DNA from: Bdellovibrionales bacterium
Lineage (GTDB): Bacteria > Bdellovibrionota > Bdellovibrionia > Bdellovibrionales > UBA1609
Length of the DNA stretch: 64,000 nt
Reading direction: 5' to 3'
Assembly (NCBI GenBank): GCA_014323935.1
Contig: JACOND010000009.1
Coordinates: 1 to 64,000, forward strand
Shown here: positions 7,720 to 37,236 of the stretch, piece after piece
Layout of the letters: each line of letters opens with the position of its first letter
Numbering within the stretch: position 1 is the first letter of the stretch
Position numbers and translations under genes: made by a program
Notes under the pieces: generated by a model
Databases searched by the model: none
Told to the model about the DNA's origin: nothing
What the model saw: only the letters and a program-made list of their open reading frames with translations

Positions 7720-8703
7720 TCAGAGCAAACTTAAGAAAACATCTTCATCAATATTAGCCCCTGAAATCAAAACGCAACAGGTCTTTCCTAAATCCCAATC
7801 TTTCTGGTATTTTAAAGCCCCTACCAAAGCAGTGGCTCCCGAACCTTCTACTTTTTGACCTGTCTGCTCTTTTATTTCTACAATAGCCTCTGAGATTTCT
7901 TTTTCACTCACACAACAAATACCATCTACATATTGAAAACAAAAATCAAGAATTTCTGGGGAACTTTTTTTAACAGCAATCCCATCTGTCAAACCACTTT
8001 TTGAAGATCTCATGAAAAGATTTTTTTCACATAAACAATTTTGTCCCTCTCTTATTTTATTGAATTTTTTACAAAAATCAGGAGTCCCCTCCCAAGTCAC
8101 TCCATAAATTTTTAAAGAAGGTTTAAGATGTTTAAGAGCTAAAGAGACTCCTGAAAGCAAGCCTCCTCCTCCAACAGGAATAACAACAGAGTCTAAATCA
8201 GGTAGCTCCTCAAAAAGTTCAAGTCCTATGGTCCCTTGTCCTGCAATTACATGAGTATCTGCAAAAGGGTGAATAAAAATAGAATCTCCTCCTATAGACA
8301 AAGCATATTCATAACTTTCATCATAAGTTTTTCCTTTTAAAATAATTTCAGCTCCTAGTTTTTTTGTCTCTAAAATTTTAACTTTAGAAGCCGTTTCCAT
8401 CATAACCACACGAAATTTAATATTGAAAAGCTGAGCCGCTAAGGCAACTCCTTGAGCATGATTTCCTGCAGAAGCAGCGATTAAACCACGAGCTTTTTCC
8501 TCTTTTGTAAGAGAGAGAATTTTATTTAAAGCTCCACGAATTTTAAAACTCTTAGTTTTCTGTTCACTTTCCCACTTCAAAAAAAGAGAAAGACCTAATT
8601 GCCGGCTCCCATAATTATAGGAAGACAAACGGGTTTTTTTAATATAAGGACTTAAACGTTTTTTTGCTAATTGAATATCTTGAAAACATGTTTGTATCTT
8701 CAT
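7720..8703 (-). CDS. PLP-dependent threonine dehydratase / serine racemase family enzyme
   Basis: The 327-residue fold-type II PLP enzyme carries the Schiff-base lysine in KSFKIRGALNKIL, the phosphate-binding glycine loop in PVGGGGLLSG, and the late GSGATALVGALK segment. It is the short form: the C-terminal ACT-like regulatory domain of biosynthetic IlvA is absent. It therefore resembles catabolic TdcB or serine racemase more than feedback-regulated IlvA. The likely reaction is deamination of threonine or serine to the 2-oxoacid. It lies between cmk and tpiA with short gaps. Confidence 0.88.
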   Translation of the reverse strand: MKIQTCFQDIQLAKKRLSPYIKKTRLSSYNYGSRQLGLSLFLKWESEQKTKSFKIRGALNKILSLTKEEKARGLIAASAGNHAQGVALAAQLFNIKFRVVMMETASKVKILETKKLGAEIILKGKTYDESYEYALSIGGDSIFIHPFADTHVIAGQGTIGLELFEELPDLDSVVIPVGGGGLLSGVSLALKHLKPSLKIYGVTWEGTPDFCKKFNKIREGQNCLCEKNLFMRSSKSGLTDGIAVKKSSPEILDFCFQYVDGICCVSEKEISEAIVEIKEQTGQKVEGSGATALVGALKYQKDWDLGKTCCVLISGANIDEDVFLSLL

Positions 8704-8714
8704 AATAAACTTTT

Positions 8715-9458
8715 TTAACAGCTTTTAATTTGTTTATAAATTCCATAAAAAGAATGAGGATTTACAGATTCAGAACCTATTAAAAAACCATCTAATTTAT
8801 CACAAGATAAACTCAAAGCATTTTCTAAAGACACACTTCCTCCATAAAAAACTTTAACTGTAGGAAAGTCTTCCTTAATTAAGCTAATAACATCTTCTAA
8901 TTCACTTACAGAGGGAATTTCCCCTGTGCCAATAGACCAAAGAGGTTCATAAGCAACAATGAAAGAGAGATCTTTAAAATCGGGAGGTAGCTTTTCGGGG
9001 TGAAAAGGAAGTTTTTCATACTTATTGTATTGTTTAATCCAAGACAGTTTTTTAATCAAAACCTTATTTTTTTGAAATCGCTCCGATAAAGATTCCCCTA
9101 TACAAAGCACAGGAATTAAAGCCTGCTCTTGAACGAGAGAAAATTTTTTTTCAATATCCACATCTGTCTCACCAAAAATATATCTTCTCTCACTATGTCC
9201 TAACAAACAAAAAGTGGCTCCCATTTCTTTAAAGAGCTGAACAGAATTTTCCCCTGTTAAAGCTCCTTTTATTTTCTGATAAATATTTTGAGATCCCCAA
9301 TAAAACTTTTCTTTCTCAAAAATTAAAGATAAAGGAGCGGGAGGAAAAAAAATAAAGCTATCTTTATCTTCTTTTTTAACAAGTTTATTAAATTCCAAAA
9401 GAAAAGAAAGGGCTTGTTGATAACCCATATTCATTTTCCAGTTTCCTGCTATCAACAT
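8715..9458 (-). CDS. tpiA: Triosephosphate isomerase
   Basis: This 247-residue TIM barrel begins AGNWKMN (catalytic Lys). It has the catalytic His in LLGHSERRYIFGE, the catalytic Glu in AYEPLWSIGTG and the phosphate-binding FYGGSVSLENA segment. It interconverts dihydroxyacetone phosphate and glyceraldehyde 3-phosphate. Other glycolytic genes in this window (pgk, eno) are scattered rather than clustered with it. Confidence 0.97.
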   Translation of the reverse strand: MLIAGNWKMNMGYQQALSFLLEFNKLVKKEDKDSFIFFPPAPLSLIFEKEKFYWGSQNIYQKIKGALTGENSVQLFKEMGATFCLLGHSERRYIFGETDVDIEKKFSLVQEQALIPVLCIGESLSERFQKNKVLIKKLSWIKQYNKYEKLPFHPEKLPPDFKDLSFIVAYEPLWSIGTGEIPSVSELEDVISLIKEDFPTVKVFYGGSVSLENALSLSCDKLDGFLIGSESVNPHSFYGIYKQIKSC

Positions 9459-9518
9459 ATTATCTAAAAATTATCATAAAGTTTTTTTTTGTCAAATTGA
9501 ACCATCTCTTAAAAAGCC

Positions 9519-11255
9519 TTAATTTAAAAACTTAGTTAAAAAAAAATTAGATTCTAAATCTGATAAATTCACTTTATGTTTTTCTCCGGTTTTACGAACA
9601 AAAATTTCTATCTGATTGTTTTCTAAATCTCTTAGTCCTAAATTGACTCTTAAAGGTAAACCTATTAAATCGGCATCTTTAAATTTAACACCGGGTCTTT
9701 CTTTTCTATTATCAATAAAATAATCTAAAGACTGCTTATCTAAAATAGAAATCAGCTTTTCTTGAGCTTTTGAAATCCTAGAATTTTCTTCTCCATCAAT
9801 CAAACAGATGTGGACAGCAAAAGGAGCTATACAAAAAGGCCATAGGATTCCCTTGTCATCATGTTTTTGTTCAATAATAGCTTGTAAAGTCCTTGTGACA
9901 CCCAGGCCATAACAACCCATTTTTACAAATTGCTTTTTTCCTTTTTTATCTAAATAACTTAAACCCATCTTTTTAGAATACTCATCCCCGAGATAAAATA
10001 AATGTCCCACTTCAATTCCTCTGTACTTTTTAAAGGAAAAGCCTTGAGGACTCAGATCTCTTTCCCTTGCAAAACAAAAGTCTCCAAAAGCCTTGACCTT
10101 GAAATCTCTATCTATGTTCACATTCTTAAAATGAAACCCCTCTTCATTGGCTCCTGTTATAAAATTTCTTTTTCCTTTTAAATAATTGTCTAAATAAATA
10201 GGAACTTCTATTTTTAACTTATGAGGTCCGCAACTTCCCGGCTCCACTCCTGTTATCTTATAAACAGCTTCTTTATCTGCTAAAATCGGTTGTTCTTTTA
10301 AACAAAGTTCTTTTTTCACTTTAAAAAGACTCACTTCATCATCCCCCAAGCATAACACAGCAAAAGCTTTATTTTTTAAGCTCGCTTGATTTTGATCTTG
10401 ATTTATAAAAAATAAAATTTTTATGAGTTCCTTACTTTCAATAGATAAAAAATGAGCCAACTGATCAATGGTTTTAATATGAGGGGTTGCAAACTTTTCC
10501 ATTTTTTTTAACTCAGGAGTTGAACTTTGAGTTTTTTTTGCATCTTGACGAGGGCAAATTTCAATATTTGCAGACATATCTTGACTCACTAAAAGTTCAT
10601 CTTCACCAGCTTTTGCTAAAATATGGAATTCTTCTGAATGATTTCCTCCGATAGCTCCTGAATCGGCTTTGACGACAACATAATCCACTTCGAGTTGATT
10701 AAAAATATTTTGATAAGCTTGAAACATTTTTTGATAAGATTGAAAAGCCGTCTCAAAACAAGTATCAAAACTGTAGGCATCCTTCATTAAAAATTCCCTC
10801 GCTCTCATTAAACCAAAACGAGGACGAATTTCATCTCTGTATTTTGTTTGTATTTGATACAAATTCAAAGGCATATCTCTCCAACTGCTTAATCCCGGTT
10901 TAACAAAATTAATAATCAGTTCTTCATGAGTGGGTCCTAAACACAGCTTTGCCCCTGTACGACTTTCCATTTTTAAAAGCAAACCTTCAAATTTATTCCA
11001 ACGTCCTGACTCCTCCCAAATCTCTTTACTTTGAACCATCGGCATCAATATCTCTCTTGCCTGATTTTTTTCTAACTCTTTTTTAATAAGATTTGAGAGC
11101 TTTTGAAGGGAACGTAAAAACAAAGTATTATACACATAAATCCCTTGACTGCTCATAGAGATCAAGCCAGATCTTAATAGTAAAATATGACTTGAAATGT
11201 GAGCTCCTGAGGGAACTTCTTTAAGAGTTTTTAAATAAATTTCAGACCACTTCAT
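9519..11255 (-). CDS. proS: Prolyl-tRNA synthetase
   Basis: This is a bacterial-type class II synthetase of about 578 residues. Motif 2 is YRDEIRPRFGLMRAREFLMK and motif 3 is GCYGLGVTRTLQAI. Between them lies an insertion (about residues 240-390) in the position of the YbaK-like editing domain, which clears Ala-tRNAPro. A longer frame starts at TTG (11268-11270). I prefer the ATG at 11253-11255 because MKWSEIYLKTLKEVPSGA matches the usual ProS N-terminus. It lies just downstream of ribH. Confidence 0.95.
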   Translation of the reverse strand: MKWSEIYLKTLKEVPSGAHISSHILLLRSGLISMSSQGIYVYNTLFLRSLQKLSNLIKKELEKNQAREILMPMVQSKEIWEESGRWNKFEGLLLKMESRTGAKLCLGPTHEELIINFVKPGLSSWRDMPLNLYQIQTKYRDEIRPRFGLMRAREFLMKDAYSFDTCFETAFQSYQKMFQAYQNIFNQLEVDYVVVKADSGAIGGNHSEEFHILAKAGEDELLVSQDMSANIEICPRQDAKKTQSSTPELKKMEKFATPHIKTIDQLAHFLSIESKELIKILFFINQDQNQASLKNKAFAVLCLGDDEVSLFKVKKELCLKEQPILADKEAVYKITGVEPGSCGPHKLKIEVPIYLDNYLKGKRNFITGANEEGFHFKNVNIDRDFKVKAFGDFCFARERDLSPQGFSFKKYRGIEVGHLFYLGDEYSKKMGLSYLDKKGKKQFVKMGCYGLGVTRTLQAIIEQKHDDKGILWPFCIAPFAVHICLIDGEENSRISKAQEKLISILDKQSLDYFIDNRKERPGVKFKDADLIGLPLRVNLGLRDLENNQIEIFVRKTGEKHKVNLSDLESNFFLTKFLN

Positions 11256-33977: not shown

Positions 33978-34084
33978 AAAAAATCCTATTTCCTTTATGA
34001 AGGTCTAATTTAACAAATTATTCCTAAAAAGTCAATTTTATTTTTATCTTGAAAAGTCATTTACAAAAAGGAATAAATAAACTT

Positions 34085-34978
34085 ATGAAATTTTTTATTC
34101 TTATTGTGAAAGGTTTTTTTCTAGGTTTATCTATGGTTTTGCCGGGTGTTTCTGGAGGGACACTTGCTTTTATTATGGGGATTTATGAAAAATTAATTCA
34201 AGAAATATCTCTTTTTAAAAGCTCCCATATTAGAAATATCTTAAAGTGTTTTTCTTTTAATAAAAAACAAATTCATTTTCATTTTTCTAAATTACAAAAC
34301 ACCTGGGACTGGTCTTTTTTAATACCTCTTATGTTTGGTGTTCTCTCAGCTCCCATTGGATTTATCCTCTTTACTTTAGAATGGATCGAAAAAAATAATT
34401 TTATTTTTTACTCTCTGATCTGTGGACTGGTTCTAGCTAGCATGATTTCTCCTTTCAAACAGATGAAAAAATCCCTGCAAACTTTTTTATTTTTTTTTGT
34501 TTCTCTTATTTTTAATTTAGCTATTTTTTTCTATGGAAAAGAATTTTTTATTCTTTCAAAAGAAATCCCTTCTTTTTTATTTTTTCCTATTGGTTTTATT
34601 GTTTCAATAGCTTTCCTTGTACCTGGTCTTTCAGGTTCTTATTTGCTCCTCATTTTAGGTCTTTATGAAAAAACTCTTTTAGCCTTTAAAAACCTTGATT
34701 TTTTTATTATAGGTTTTTTCTTATTAGGTGGAATTTCAGGCTTTATTTTATCAGCTAAGGGAATTCAAAAGCTTTTGCAAAATTACTGGAATCAAAGTTT
34801 AGCCTGCATCTTAGGACTTATACTAGGGAGTTTATACTCTCTTTACCCTCTCAAAACCCATCCTTTTATTTGGGATAGAGAACAAAAACTTTTCCTGTTT
34901 TATATGACGGTAGGTTTTTTACTTTTTTTACTTTTTCATTTTTATCTAGGGAAAAAAAATAAAAAAACTCTGTCTTAG
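34085..34978 (+). CDS. DUF368 family membrane protein (PopT-like polyprenyl-phosphate transporter)
   Basis: This protein of about 297 residues has eight or more membrane helices and the two family signatures: SMVLPGVSGGTLAFIMGIYE near the N-terminus and FLVPGLSGSYLLLILGLYE in the second half, an inverted-repeat pair. DUF368 proteins have been linked to recycling of undecaprenyl phosphate across the membrane. The frame extends to a TTG at 34049. I use the ATG at 34085, which has AAAGGAAT about 11 bases upstream and starts right before the first helix. Confidence 0.9.
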   Translation: MKFFILIVKGFFLGLSMVLPGVSGGTLAFIMGIYEKLIQEISLFKSSHIRNILKCFSFNKKQIHFHFSKLQNTWDWSFLIPLMFGVLSAPIGFILFTLEWIEKNNFIFYSLICGLVLASMISPFKQMKKSLQTFLFFFVSLIFNLAIFFYGKEFFILSKEIPSFLFFPIGFIVSIAFLVPGLSGSYLLLILGLYEKTLLAFKNLDFFIIGFFLLGGISGFILSAKGIQKLLQNYWNQSLACILGLILGSLYSLYPLKTHPFIWDREQKLFLFYMTVGFLLFLLFHFYLGKKNKKTLS

Positions 34979-35051: not shown

Positions 35052-36944
35052 TTGCAGAAAATCAAAAAATCTATTAAATTATTCTTTGTGTATTTTAGTG
35101 GAAAAATCACCAATTCTTTTTTTACTTTTTTAAATCGCTATGAACTAGATACAAGTCGTTTTTTTGAAATAACTGCTTTAGAAATTGATTTTATAAAAGA
35201 TCCTTATTCCCTCATGTCAGCTGATCAAGTTGAACTTTTATTAAGAAATATTCAAAGAGCTTACCAAGATAAATTTATGGATAAAGACTTGGTCACAACT
35301 GTAGGACATAATGCTCCTGACTTAAAAGCATGGGGAGGATTGGAATCAGCTCTTTCTACTTTTTTTGAAAATCCTACGGCTATGTATCAAAAAATAGATA
35401 AGTTTTTTAGTTTTTTTATATCTCCTGCCCCTGGAATTTATAATAAACACAATCAAAAGGATTTTTTCTCTTTTGAAATGGATTTTAATTTTAATAAGTA
35501 TCCGACTGTGAAACAGTATTTTCTATCTGCTTTAGAAATTTTACCTGTTTTTCTAAAAAAAGAACAAACCGAAGCAAAATGGGAGAACAATTTAGTTAAA
35601 ATCTATCACTGTCAAGAAGAAACCCTTCCTCTTCCTTTAAAATCTTTTAAAAATAAAGTAGAAGCTAAATATTTGATTTCACAAATCAAAGCTCGGGAAA
35701 TTATTGACAGTCGTGGACAACCGACCCTGGAAGTTGACCTCTTTTGCGATGGAAAGAAGGTAGCAAAAGGACTGGTTCCTAGTGGAGCTTCTAAGGGTCA
35801 ATTTGAAGCAAGAGAGTTAAGGGATAAGAACCCTCGTTATTTTTTTTCAAAAGGCTTAAAAAAAGCTTGCAGTCATGTTCAAAAACTCTCAGATCTTTTA
35901 AAAAAACAAAATGTTCTAGAGCAAGAAAACATTGACAAACTTCTTTTAAAAGCAGATGGAAGTCCTTATAAAGAAAATCTAGGAGCTAATACTCTCTTAG
36001 CTGTTTCTTTAGCTTGTTTAAGAGCGAGTGCTAGACTATCTAGAAAGCCCCTTTATGAATATGCTCGTTTAAAGAATCAAAAATTTTCTCTTCCTGTTCC
36101 TCTTATAAATATTATCAATGGAGGAGTTCATGGCAGTAACTCCTTAGATATTCAAGAATTTATGATTGTTCCTTTAGATTTTCCTTCTTTCAAAGAAGCT
36201 CTGAGAGCCGGCTGTGAAATTTTTCACTGTTTAAAGCAAGATCTTCGTTCTCAAAATTTTTCCATTGCTGTAGGAGATGAAGGAGGATTCACTCCTCAGT
36301 TTTCATCTTCGACACAAGCTTTTGATTTTATTTTATCTGCTATAGAGAAATCTTCCTATACAGGAAAAGTGGCTTTAGCTCTAGACTGTGCGTCTTGTGA
36401 ATTTTATAAAAAAGATCATTATCTTTTTGAAGGGAAAAAAAGATTCTCAGACGAAATGATTTCTATCTATGAAAAATGGGTCAAAGATTATCCTCTCATT
36501 AGCATTGAAGATGGCTTAGATGAAAATGACTGGGCCGGATGGAAGAAGATGACTCAAAAGTTAGGACATAAAATTCAGCTGGTTGGAGATGACCTCTTTG
36601 TCACGCAAAGGGATCGGATTCAAAAAGGCATTCAAAACAAAGCAGCAAATGCTTTACTTGTGAAATACAATCAAGTAGGAACTCTTACAGAAAGTCTCTC
36701 AGCAGTTCAAACCGCTCAAGCTGGAAATTTTGCATGTATTTTTTCTCATAGAAGCGGTGAAACAGAGGATACAAGTATTGCAGATTTATCGGTCGCTTGG
36801 GGAACGGAACAAATCAAAACCGGTAGCGTGACACGAGGGGAAAGAACGGCTAAATACAACCGTCTGATTAGAATTGAAGAAGAGTTAGGAACTTCTGGAT
36901 TTTACAAAGGAAGTCAAGCTTTTAAAAATTTATCTCAGAGTTAA
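35052..36944 (+). CDS. eno: Enolase with a 205-residue N-terminal extension
   Basis: Residues about 206-630 are a complete enolase: REIIDSRGQPTLEV, VGDEGGFTPQ, the metal ligands in ALDCAS and ISIEDGLDE and VGDDLF, the catalytic Lys in LVKYNQVG, and SHRSGETED. It makes phosphoenolpyruvate. Residues 1-205 are extra and include TTVGHNAPDLKAWGGLESAL and FFISPAPG. From memory this resembles a sensor-like domain of deltaproteobacterial and Bdellovibrio histidine kinases; that is an inference. The start is TTG (35052-35054); the first in-frame Met is residue 55. ftsB follows by one base. Confidence 0.9.
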   Translation: MQKIKKSIKLFFVYFSGKITNSFFTFLNRYELDTSRFFEITALEIDFIKDPYSLMSADQVELLLRNIQRAYQDKFMDKDLVTTVGHNAPDLKAWGGLESALSTFFENPTAMYQKIDKFFSFFISPAPGIYNKHNQKDFFSFEMDFNFNKYPTVKQYFLSALEILPVFLKKEQTEAKWENNLVKIYHCQEETLPLPLKSFKNKVEAKYLISQIKAREIIDSRGQPTLEVDLFCDGKKVAKGLVPSGASKGQFEARELRDKNPRYFFSKGLKKACSHVQKLSDLLKKQNVLEQENIDKLLLKADGSPYKENLGANTLLAVSLACLRASARLSRKPLYEYARLKNQKFSLPVPLINIINGGVHGSNSLDIQEFMIVPLDFPSFKEALRAGCEIFHCLKQDLRSQNFSIAVGDEGGFTPQFSSSTQAFDFILSAIEKSSYTGKVALALDCASCEFYKKDHYLFEGKKRFSDEMISIYEKWVKDYPLISIEDGLDENDWAGWKKMTQKLGHKIQLVGDDLFVTQRDRIQKGIQNKAANALLVKYNQVGTLTESLSAVQTAQAGNFACIFSHRSGETEDTSIADLSVAWGTEQIKTGSVTRGERTAKYNRLIRIEEELGTSGFYKGSQAFKNLSQS

Positions 36945-36945
36945 A

Positions 36946-37236
36946 ATGAAAGCTCTTATTGGAATTTTATATAAACCTTATCTTACCTTTTTATTATGTC
37001 TTGTTTTTTTAACTATCAATTTAATTTTTAGAGGAACTTTATTTCAAGTTTTTAAATTAAACCAAGATTTAAAAATTGTAAAAAACAGAATTGTATTTCT
37101 TGAAAAACAAAATAAAAAAATAAAAGAAAAAATCAAGCTTTCACAAGATCTTGATTTTATAGAAAAAGAATTGAGAGATCGATTGGACTACACCGAAGAA
37201 GATGATTTGATTTTTATTTTTCCAGAAAAAATTTAA
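36946..37236 (+). CDS. FtsB/DivIC-like septum formation initiator
   Basis: The 96-residue bitopic protein has one N-terminal membrane helix (about residues 12-30). A short coiled coil (NQDLKIVKNRIVFLEKQNKKIKEK, about 40-65) and the end ELRDRLDYTEEDDLIFIFP follow, typical of FtsB. Its position right after enolase matches the frequent eno-ftsB order in proteobacteria. It would act in the FtsBLQ divisome complex. Its TAA shares TTAA with the stop of the convergent dacB. Confidence 0.85.
   Translation: MKALIGILYKPYLTFLLCLVFLTINLIFRGTLFQVFKLNQDLKIVKNRIVFLEKQNKKIKEKIKLSQDLDFIEKELRDRLDYTEEDDLIFIFPEKI

Follow-up and report, generated by a model that had tools for sequence, protein, structure and literature searches.

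Enolase ranks among the most conserved enzymes, and fusions of it to other domains are rare. In a relative of the predator Bdellovibrio with a small genome, the only enolase found carries, as read from the DNA sequence, an N-terminal sensor-type domain that is part of a separate signalling protein in nearly all relatives. The gene lies in the window, the 64,000-nucleotide stretch of contig JACOND010000009.1 that was analysed here, and belongs to a genome of 1.59 Mb in 57 contigs that is 88% complete. We found no account of an enolase fused in this way in the open-access literature searched, the coverage of which is incomplete. On balance, we favour a reading in which the extension is a non-heme sensor or binding domain of the H-NOX fold that came from a histidine kinase whose gene adjoined eno. 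On this reading, the lasting role of the domain lies with enolase, to which it is here fused in cis.

Positions 35052-36944 of the forward strand form one open frame of 634 codons from stop to stop, with no internal stop. The initial annotation had described this frame as an enolase with an extra N-terminal domain, and so it is: the enolase models match its C-terminal part, and both of the motifs that had been picked out, GHNAPDLKAWG and FFISPAPG, are found in the extension. The extension thus stands, and its proposed start at TTG 35052 and length of 205 residues probably do not. Homologous domains begin with MxFSGKIT, which aligns to GTG 35088, and this GTG is therefore the probable start, so that the extension is about 12 residues shorter and the natural protein probably has 618 aa, compared with 630 aa if the TTG were used (Table 1). 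A promoter scan found sites no more numerous than in shuffled sequences. The fusion is not an assembly slip, given that the same continuous frame occurs in two other metagenome-assembled genomes (MAGs) of the genus, G002 (617 aa, complete) and G003 (405 aa up to the contig end), at an identity to the window of ~74–75%, and in G004, a genome of another genus, at 46% identity. In G003 the enolase is split between the end of contig C308 and the start of C195, and the overlapping contigs differ there (EGGFTPR versus EGGFTPH), which possibly reflects a strain mixture.

Table 1 Coordinates of the fused gene, its parts and its neighbours in the window.
Feature	Position	Strand	Remarks
Fused gene, H-NOX-fold (predicted) sensor-type domain and enolase	35088..36944	+	Single ORF; start from homologue alignment
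N-terminal domain, residues 1-173	35088..35606	+	Homologous to the N-terminal domain of histidine kinases and kinase-less proteins upstream of eno; H-NOX-like fold predicted
Linker, residues 174-196	35607..35675	+	Poorly conserved; predicted disordered around 178-190
Enolase, N-terminal and TIM-barrel domains, residues 197-618	35676..36941	+	TIGR01060, Pfam, catalytic motifs aligned to PDB enolases
FtsB/DivIC-like gene	36946..37236	+	PF04977, E 1.4e-11; directly downstream of eno, neighbour conserved across the order
Undecaprenyl phosphate translocase-like gene (PF04018)	34049..34978	+	E 3.7e-45; upstream, not in the ancestral eno neighbourhood

By sequence, the last ~420 residues are a complete enolase, the sole one found in this 88% complete draft. 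Residues 209-626 (numbered from the TTG) match TIGR01060 eno with an E value of 2.5e-163 and 543.7 bits, compared with a cut-off of 300, over positions 1-424 of the 425 in the model, and both Enolase_N and Enolase_C of Pfam match the same part of the protein, which places it in the TIGR01060 family as a predicted phosphopyruvate hydratase. The motifs QEFM, GDEGG, ALD, SIEDGL, GDDLFVT, VKYNQ, SHRSGET and QIKTGS are all intact when aligned to 4rop and 9no2; their catalytic and Mg-binding roles are those that we assume for enolases in general. In its full-length match, intact catalytic motifs and single copy found, the protein is like known enolases (TIGR01060; PDB 4rop, 1e9i), from which it differs by the N-terminal sensor-type domain of ~173 residues. 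Two unusual changes were seen near the active-site loops: HGSN[SE] in the fused enolases of the genus (GGVHGSNS in the window, 36100-36160) stands in place of the HADNN or similar sequence of other enolases, and in the window's enolase SGASKG replaces SGASTG at ~35790.

The front domain has no match in Pfam or NCBIfam. When the family was searched member by member, Pfam returned only a weak Arabinose_bd match in 2 of 39 members (E 0.02), and the domain profile found nothing credible among PDB sequences. The initial annotation had allowed that the extension might have no homologues at all; they are abundant. The window's extension matches unfused relatives with E values down to 8e-40, with 35% identity to several, and in relatives the homologous region makes up the first ~190 residues of a separate protein, the gene for which directly precedes eno. 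A profile of the 39 family members (A1), used to search the genomes of the class and phylum, has matches in 138 of 144 genomes of the class, one per genome except for one genome with a fragmented copy, and in 13 further genomes of the phylum outside the class. In one genome, G054 (an 83% complete draft), eno was present and the domain was not found.

At the 75 unfused loci with eno on the stretch read, domain gene and eno always lie on the same strand, and at 73 of them the gap is -92 to 157 bp, often an overlap; the exceptions measure 976 and 1930 bp. At a locus of the sister genus (L045 in G016, 8695-10624), 1.9 kb with three extra ORFs separates the two genes. The domain gene is also directly upstream of eno in a second group of the phylum (f15, f16), and three loci of one group (L137-L139, from G297, G298 and G296) encode full kinases with the domain and have no eno on the stretch read; a ParA-like gene adjoins one of these kinases. 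Adjacency in nearly all relatives suggests that domain and enolase have long worked together. A conserved neighbourhood can also be inherited as an operon without any interaction, which weighs against reading it as a partnership.

The initial annotation had likened the extension to the N termini of histidine kinases in Bdellovibrio-like bacteria, and this is borne out: across the order, the domain heads eno-linked kinases and their kinase-less descendants, and the identification of the window's front domain as a kinase sensor region is supported. In the deep lineages the upstream protein is a soluble histidine kinase of 457–519 aa with H-box and HATPase, and HATPase_c matches the intact kinases tested with E values of 4e-27 to 2e-22 (L060 4e-27, L118 1.7e-26, L130 2e-25). 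Scanned for architecture, the loci comprise 19 kinases with an H-box (AHExxNP-type by motif scan, with Pfam confirming the kinases tested), 13 long proteins without an H-box, 44 short proteins of 239–424 aa in which the kinase half is missing, and 4 enolase fusions; L055 and L054 have no HATPase match in Pfam. Neither HisKA/H-box nor HATPase_c was found by Pfam in the window protein. The eno-adjacent soluble histidine kinases of Bdellovibrionota (L060, L118, L130) share with it the homologous N-terminal domain and the association with eno, which in their case is the gene next door, but they keep HisKA and HATPase, whereas the window's fusion has enolase in the kinase's place.

An AlphaFold2 model of the domain, made with 39 natural homologues, has a pLDDT of 92.5 and a pTM of 0.87. 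Searched against the PDB with Foldseek, it gave only five matches at E<=0.001, all of them H-NOX (best E 2.3e-5 with TM ~0.57; probability 1.00 and TM 0.57–0.62 for the best matches, 6bde and 2o09 among them), and the weaker matches that came next were more H-NOX, TRAPP/Bet3 subunits and the MopR V4R sensor. Against a viral fold library the domain model had no match at E<=0.001. The model thus predicts an H-NOX-like fold for the domain, which resembles H-NOX (HNOB, PF07700) gas sensors, often paired with histidine kinases, in predicted fold and size, but differs from them in conserved residues and in sequence profile. Compared with 12 true H-NOX proteins of the same order, the domain shows no profile-profile similarity (hhalign probability 0.2%), and Pfam gives no HNOB PF07700 match. 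YxSxR occurs in 0 of the 39 domain members, whereas Y.S.[RK] occurs in 12 of 12 true H-NOX of the order, and no His is conserved at positions 96-111, where the proximal site was placed by spacing and not by superposition. Given that both the conserved proximal His and YxSxR are missing, canonical heme binding by the domain is unlikely. V4R (the MopR sensor) and TRAPP/Bet3, which share the H-NOX-like fold superfamily, are weaker structural matches with no sequence match and are themselves not enolase-linked. The AlphaFold2 model of the full fusion (pLDDT 93, pTM 0.72) has a linker with pLDDT <50 at residues 178-190; it points to two parts that each fold well, joined by a flexible tether and not confidently docked. 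Allosteric control or localisation of the enolase by the domain, as initially envisaged, is conceivable, and what the model shows is a flexible tether and no fixed docking.

The homologous enolases of G002, G003 and G004 share the extension, and the genes are separate in G001; three species of the window's genus have the fusion, as does a single genome from a neighbouring genus. In a concatenated tree built with FastTree, the window's genome (G000), G002 and G003 form one fused clade (support 1.0) with the unfused G001 as sister (support for the genus 1.0); G004 falls outside the window's genus, with a support of only 0.38 for a position next to it. The tree calls for either two fusions or a single fusion with one or more fissions. 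G001 encodes a domain protein of 239 aa, followed by a spacer of 157 bp and an eno with an AGGAGG ribosome site. The tail of this protein was considered as a relic of an ancestral coiled coil, which is unsupported since it scores below the best shuffles, and one fusion with one fission thus stays in contention with two fusions. Fusion is an easy step: in G014 the TAG of the upstream gene directly precedes the in-frame ATG of eno, and in G055, from the sister genus, domain gene and eno share a frame and are parted by one TAG ahead of the enolase start, so that the loss of a single stop can fuse them. Long open frames gave the appearance of further fusions in G046, G055, G104, G107, G120 and G062, all of which are separate, abutting or overlapping ORFs.

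Purifying selection acts on the domain about as strongly as on the enolase, and the domain is coding in frame with it; the linker is loose. By NG86 (in most comparisons dS is about 1 or higher and close to saturation), dN between G002 and G003 is 0.048 for the domain, 0.087 for the enolase and 0.33 for the linker (dS 0.7–2.9), and between G000 and G002 it is 0.164, 0.178 and 0.353, respectively; across comparisons, the dN of the linker is 0.33–0.48. The ratio of domain to enolase distance is 0.6–1.0 in the fused trio, within the range of unfused same-genus pairs. The idea that the fusion tightened selection on the domain is rejected on this ground, as no shift in rate is seen.

On the reading that we favour, the extension is a former kinase domain whose lasting role would be tied to enolase and not to phosphotransfer: it would bind the enzyme or, on sensing a small ligand, change how active the enzyme is or where it resides. 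The kinase half would then have been dispensable, and its loss would have left the domain in place. The homologues do include all four forms, namely full kinases, long proteins that lack the kinase motifs, short proteins with no kinase half and enolase fusions. Loss of the stop and start between the genes would finally turn a partner in trans into a cis domain, held on a flexible tether at 1:1 with the enzyme. This graded series, from kinase through degenerate kinase and naked domain to enzyme fusion, would illustrate how a sensor can leave two-component signalling, and a Rosetta-stone-type fusion to a class-wide neighbour of eno hints that a signalling or regulatory protein linked to enolase has so far gone unstudied. 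Weighing against the favoured reading are the lack of a fixed docking in the fusion model, a domain that evolves no more slowly after fusion than in unfused same-genus pairs, the kinases of L137-L139 with no eno on the stretch read, and the draft genome G054, in which eno was present and the domain was not found. We propose more tentatively, as a possibility that we ourselves doubt, that the heme-less H-NOX-fold domain is a metabolic sensor dedicated to enolase across Bdellovibrionota, which reads a ligand or the state of the enolase, first with a kinase output, then acting in trans on enolase in most lineages, and here as an intramolecular regulator. If true, an evolutionary series from two-component signalling to the direct control of a glycolytic or gluconeogenic enzyme would have been preserved. 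In Bdellovibrio-type laboratory relatives, the domain and eno genes are separate.

The strongest competitor, which we consider rather unlikely, is a neutral fusion, in which genome reduction removed the stop and spacer between adjacent, nearly in-frame genes, the domain keeps its own job and the enolase is a passenger. The single stop loss that suffices in G014 and G055, the flexible linker of the model and the lack of a rate shift after fusion all agree with it, as does the small size of all of the fused genomes (1.4–2.0 Mb), but the domain is linked to eno at nearly every locus read, the distant phylum group included, and fused forms occur in two genera. It is improbable that the true partner of the domain is another system, for example the T2SSE/CpaF-type ATPase encoded directly upstream of the domain gene in most of the class (PF00437 E 2e-58; e.g. 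L047:5760-6884), with the tie to eno a matter of operon inheritance. Although T2SS_HK is the NCBIfam model that the intact kinases match best, with scores under its cut-off, no such ATPase gene adjoins the domain in the f15/f16 group or in the fused genomes, where eno is still beside it, and the link to eno thus outlasts that to the ATPase gene. Least probable, by a small margin, is that internal initiation makes mostly free enolase, with little of the long protein: in the window Leu208 is encoded by TTG, and G004 has an ATG in frame 16 codons ahead of the RE motif, but G002 and G003 have TTA at that codon and no ATG, the window has no clear ribosome site (in contrast to the AGGAGG of G001) and domain and enolase are similarly constrained, so that the translation from near residue 200 that the initial annotation had raised finds no conserved start codon at the enolase boundary.

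As for the setting in which the fused enzyme works, pyruvate kinase (PF00224) was found in 0 of 8 genomes of the clade made up of the fused genera and the sister genus (drafts 83–94% complete) and in 33 of 39 other genomes of the family, and the N-domain of the PPDK/PEP-synthase type (PPDK_N) was found in 12 of 12 genomes tested. With PPDK_N kept and pyruvate kinase not found in these 83–94% complete drafts, the enolase of that clade may serve a rearranged lower glycolysis or gluconeogenesis. The close relatives of the window's genome are the Bdellovibrionales/Oligoflexia MAGs RHO2_bin_34 (G003), CAR1_bin_21 (G002) and APA_bin_46 (G001), the prefixes of which fit the sponge hosts Rhopaloeides, Carteriospongia and Aplysina of PMC8163846; judged from these name prefixes, the genus is likely to be sponge-associated.
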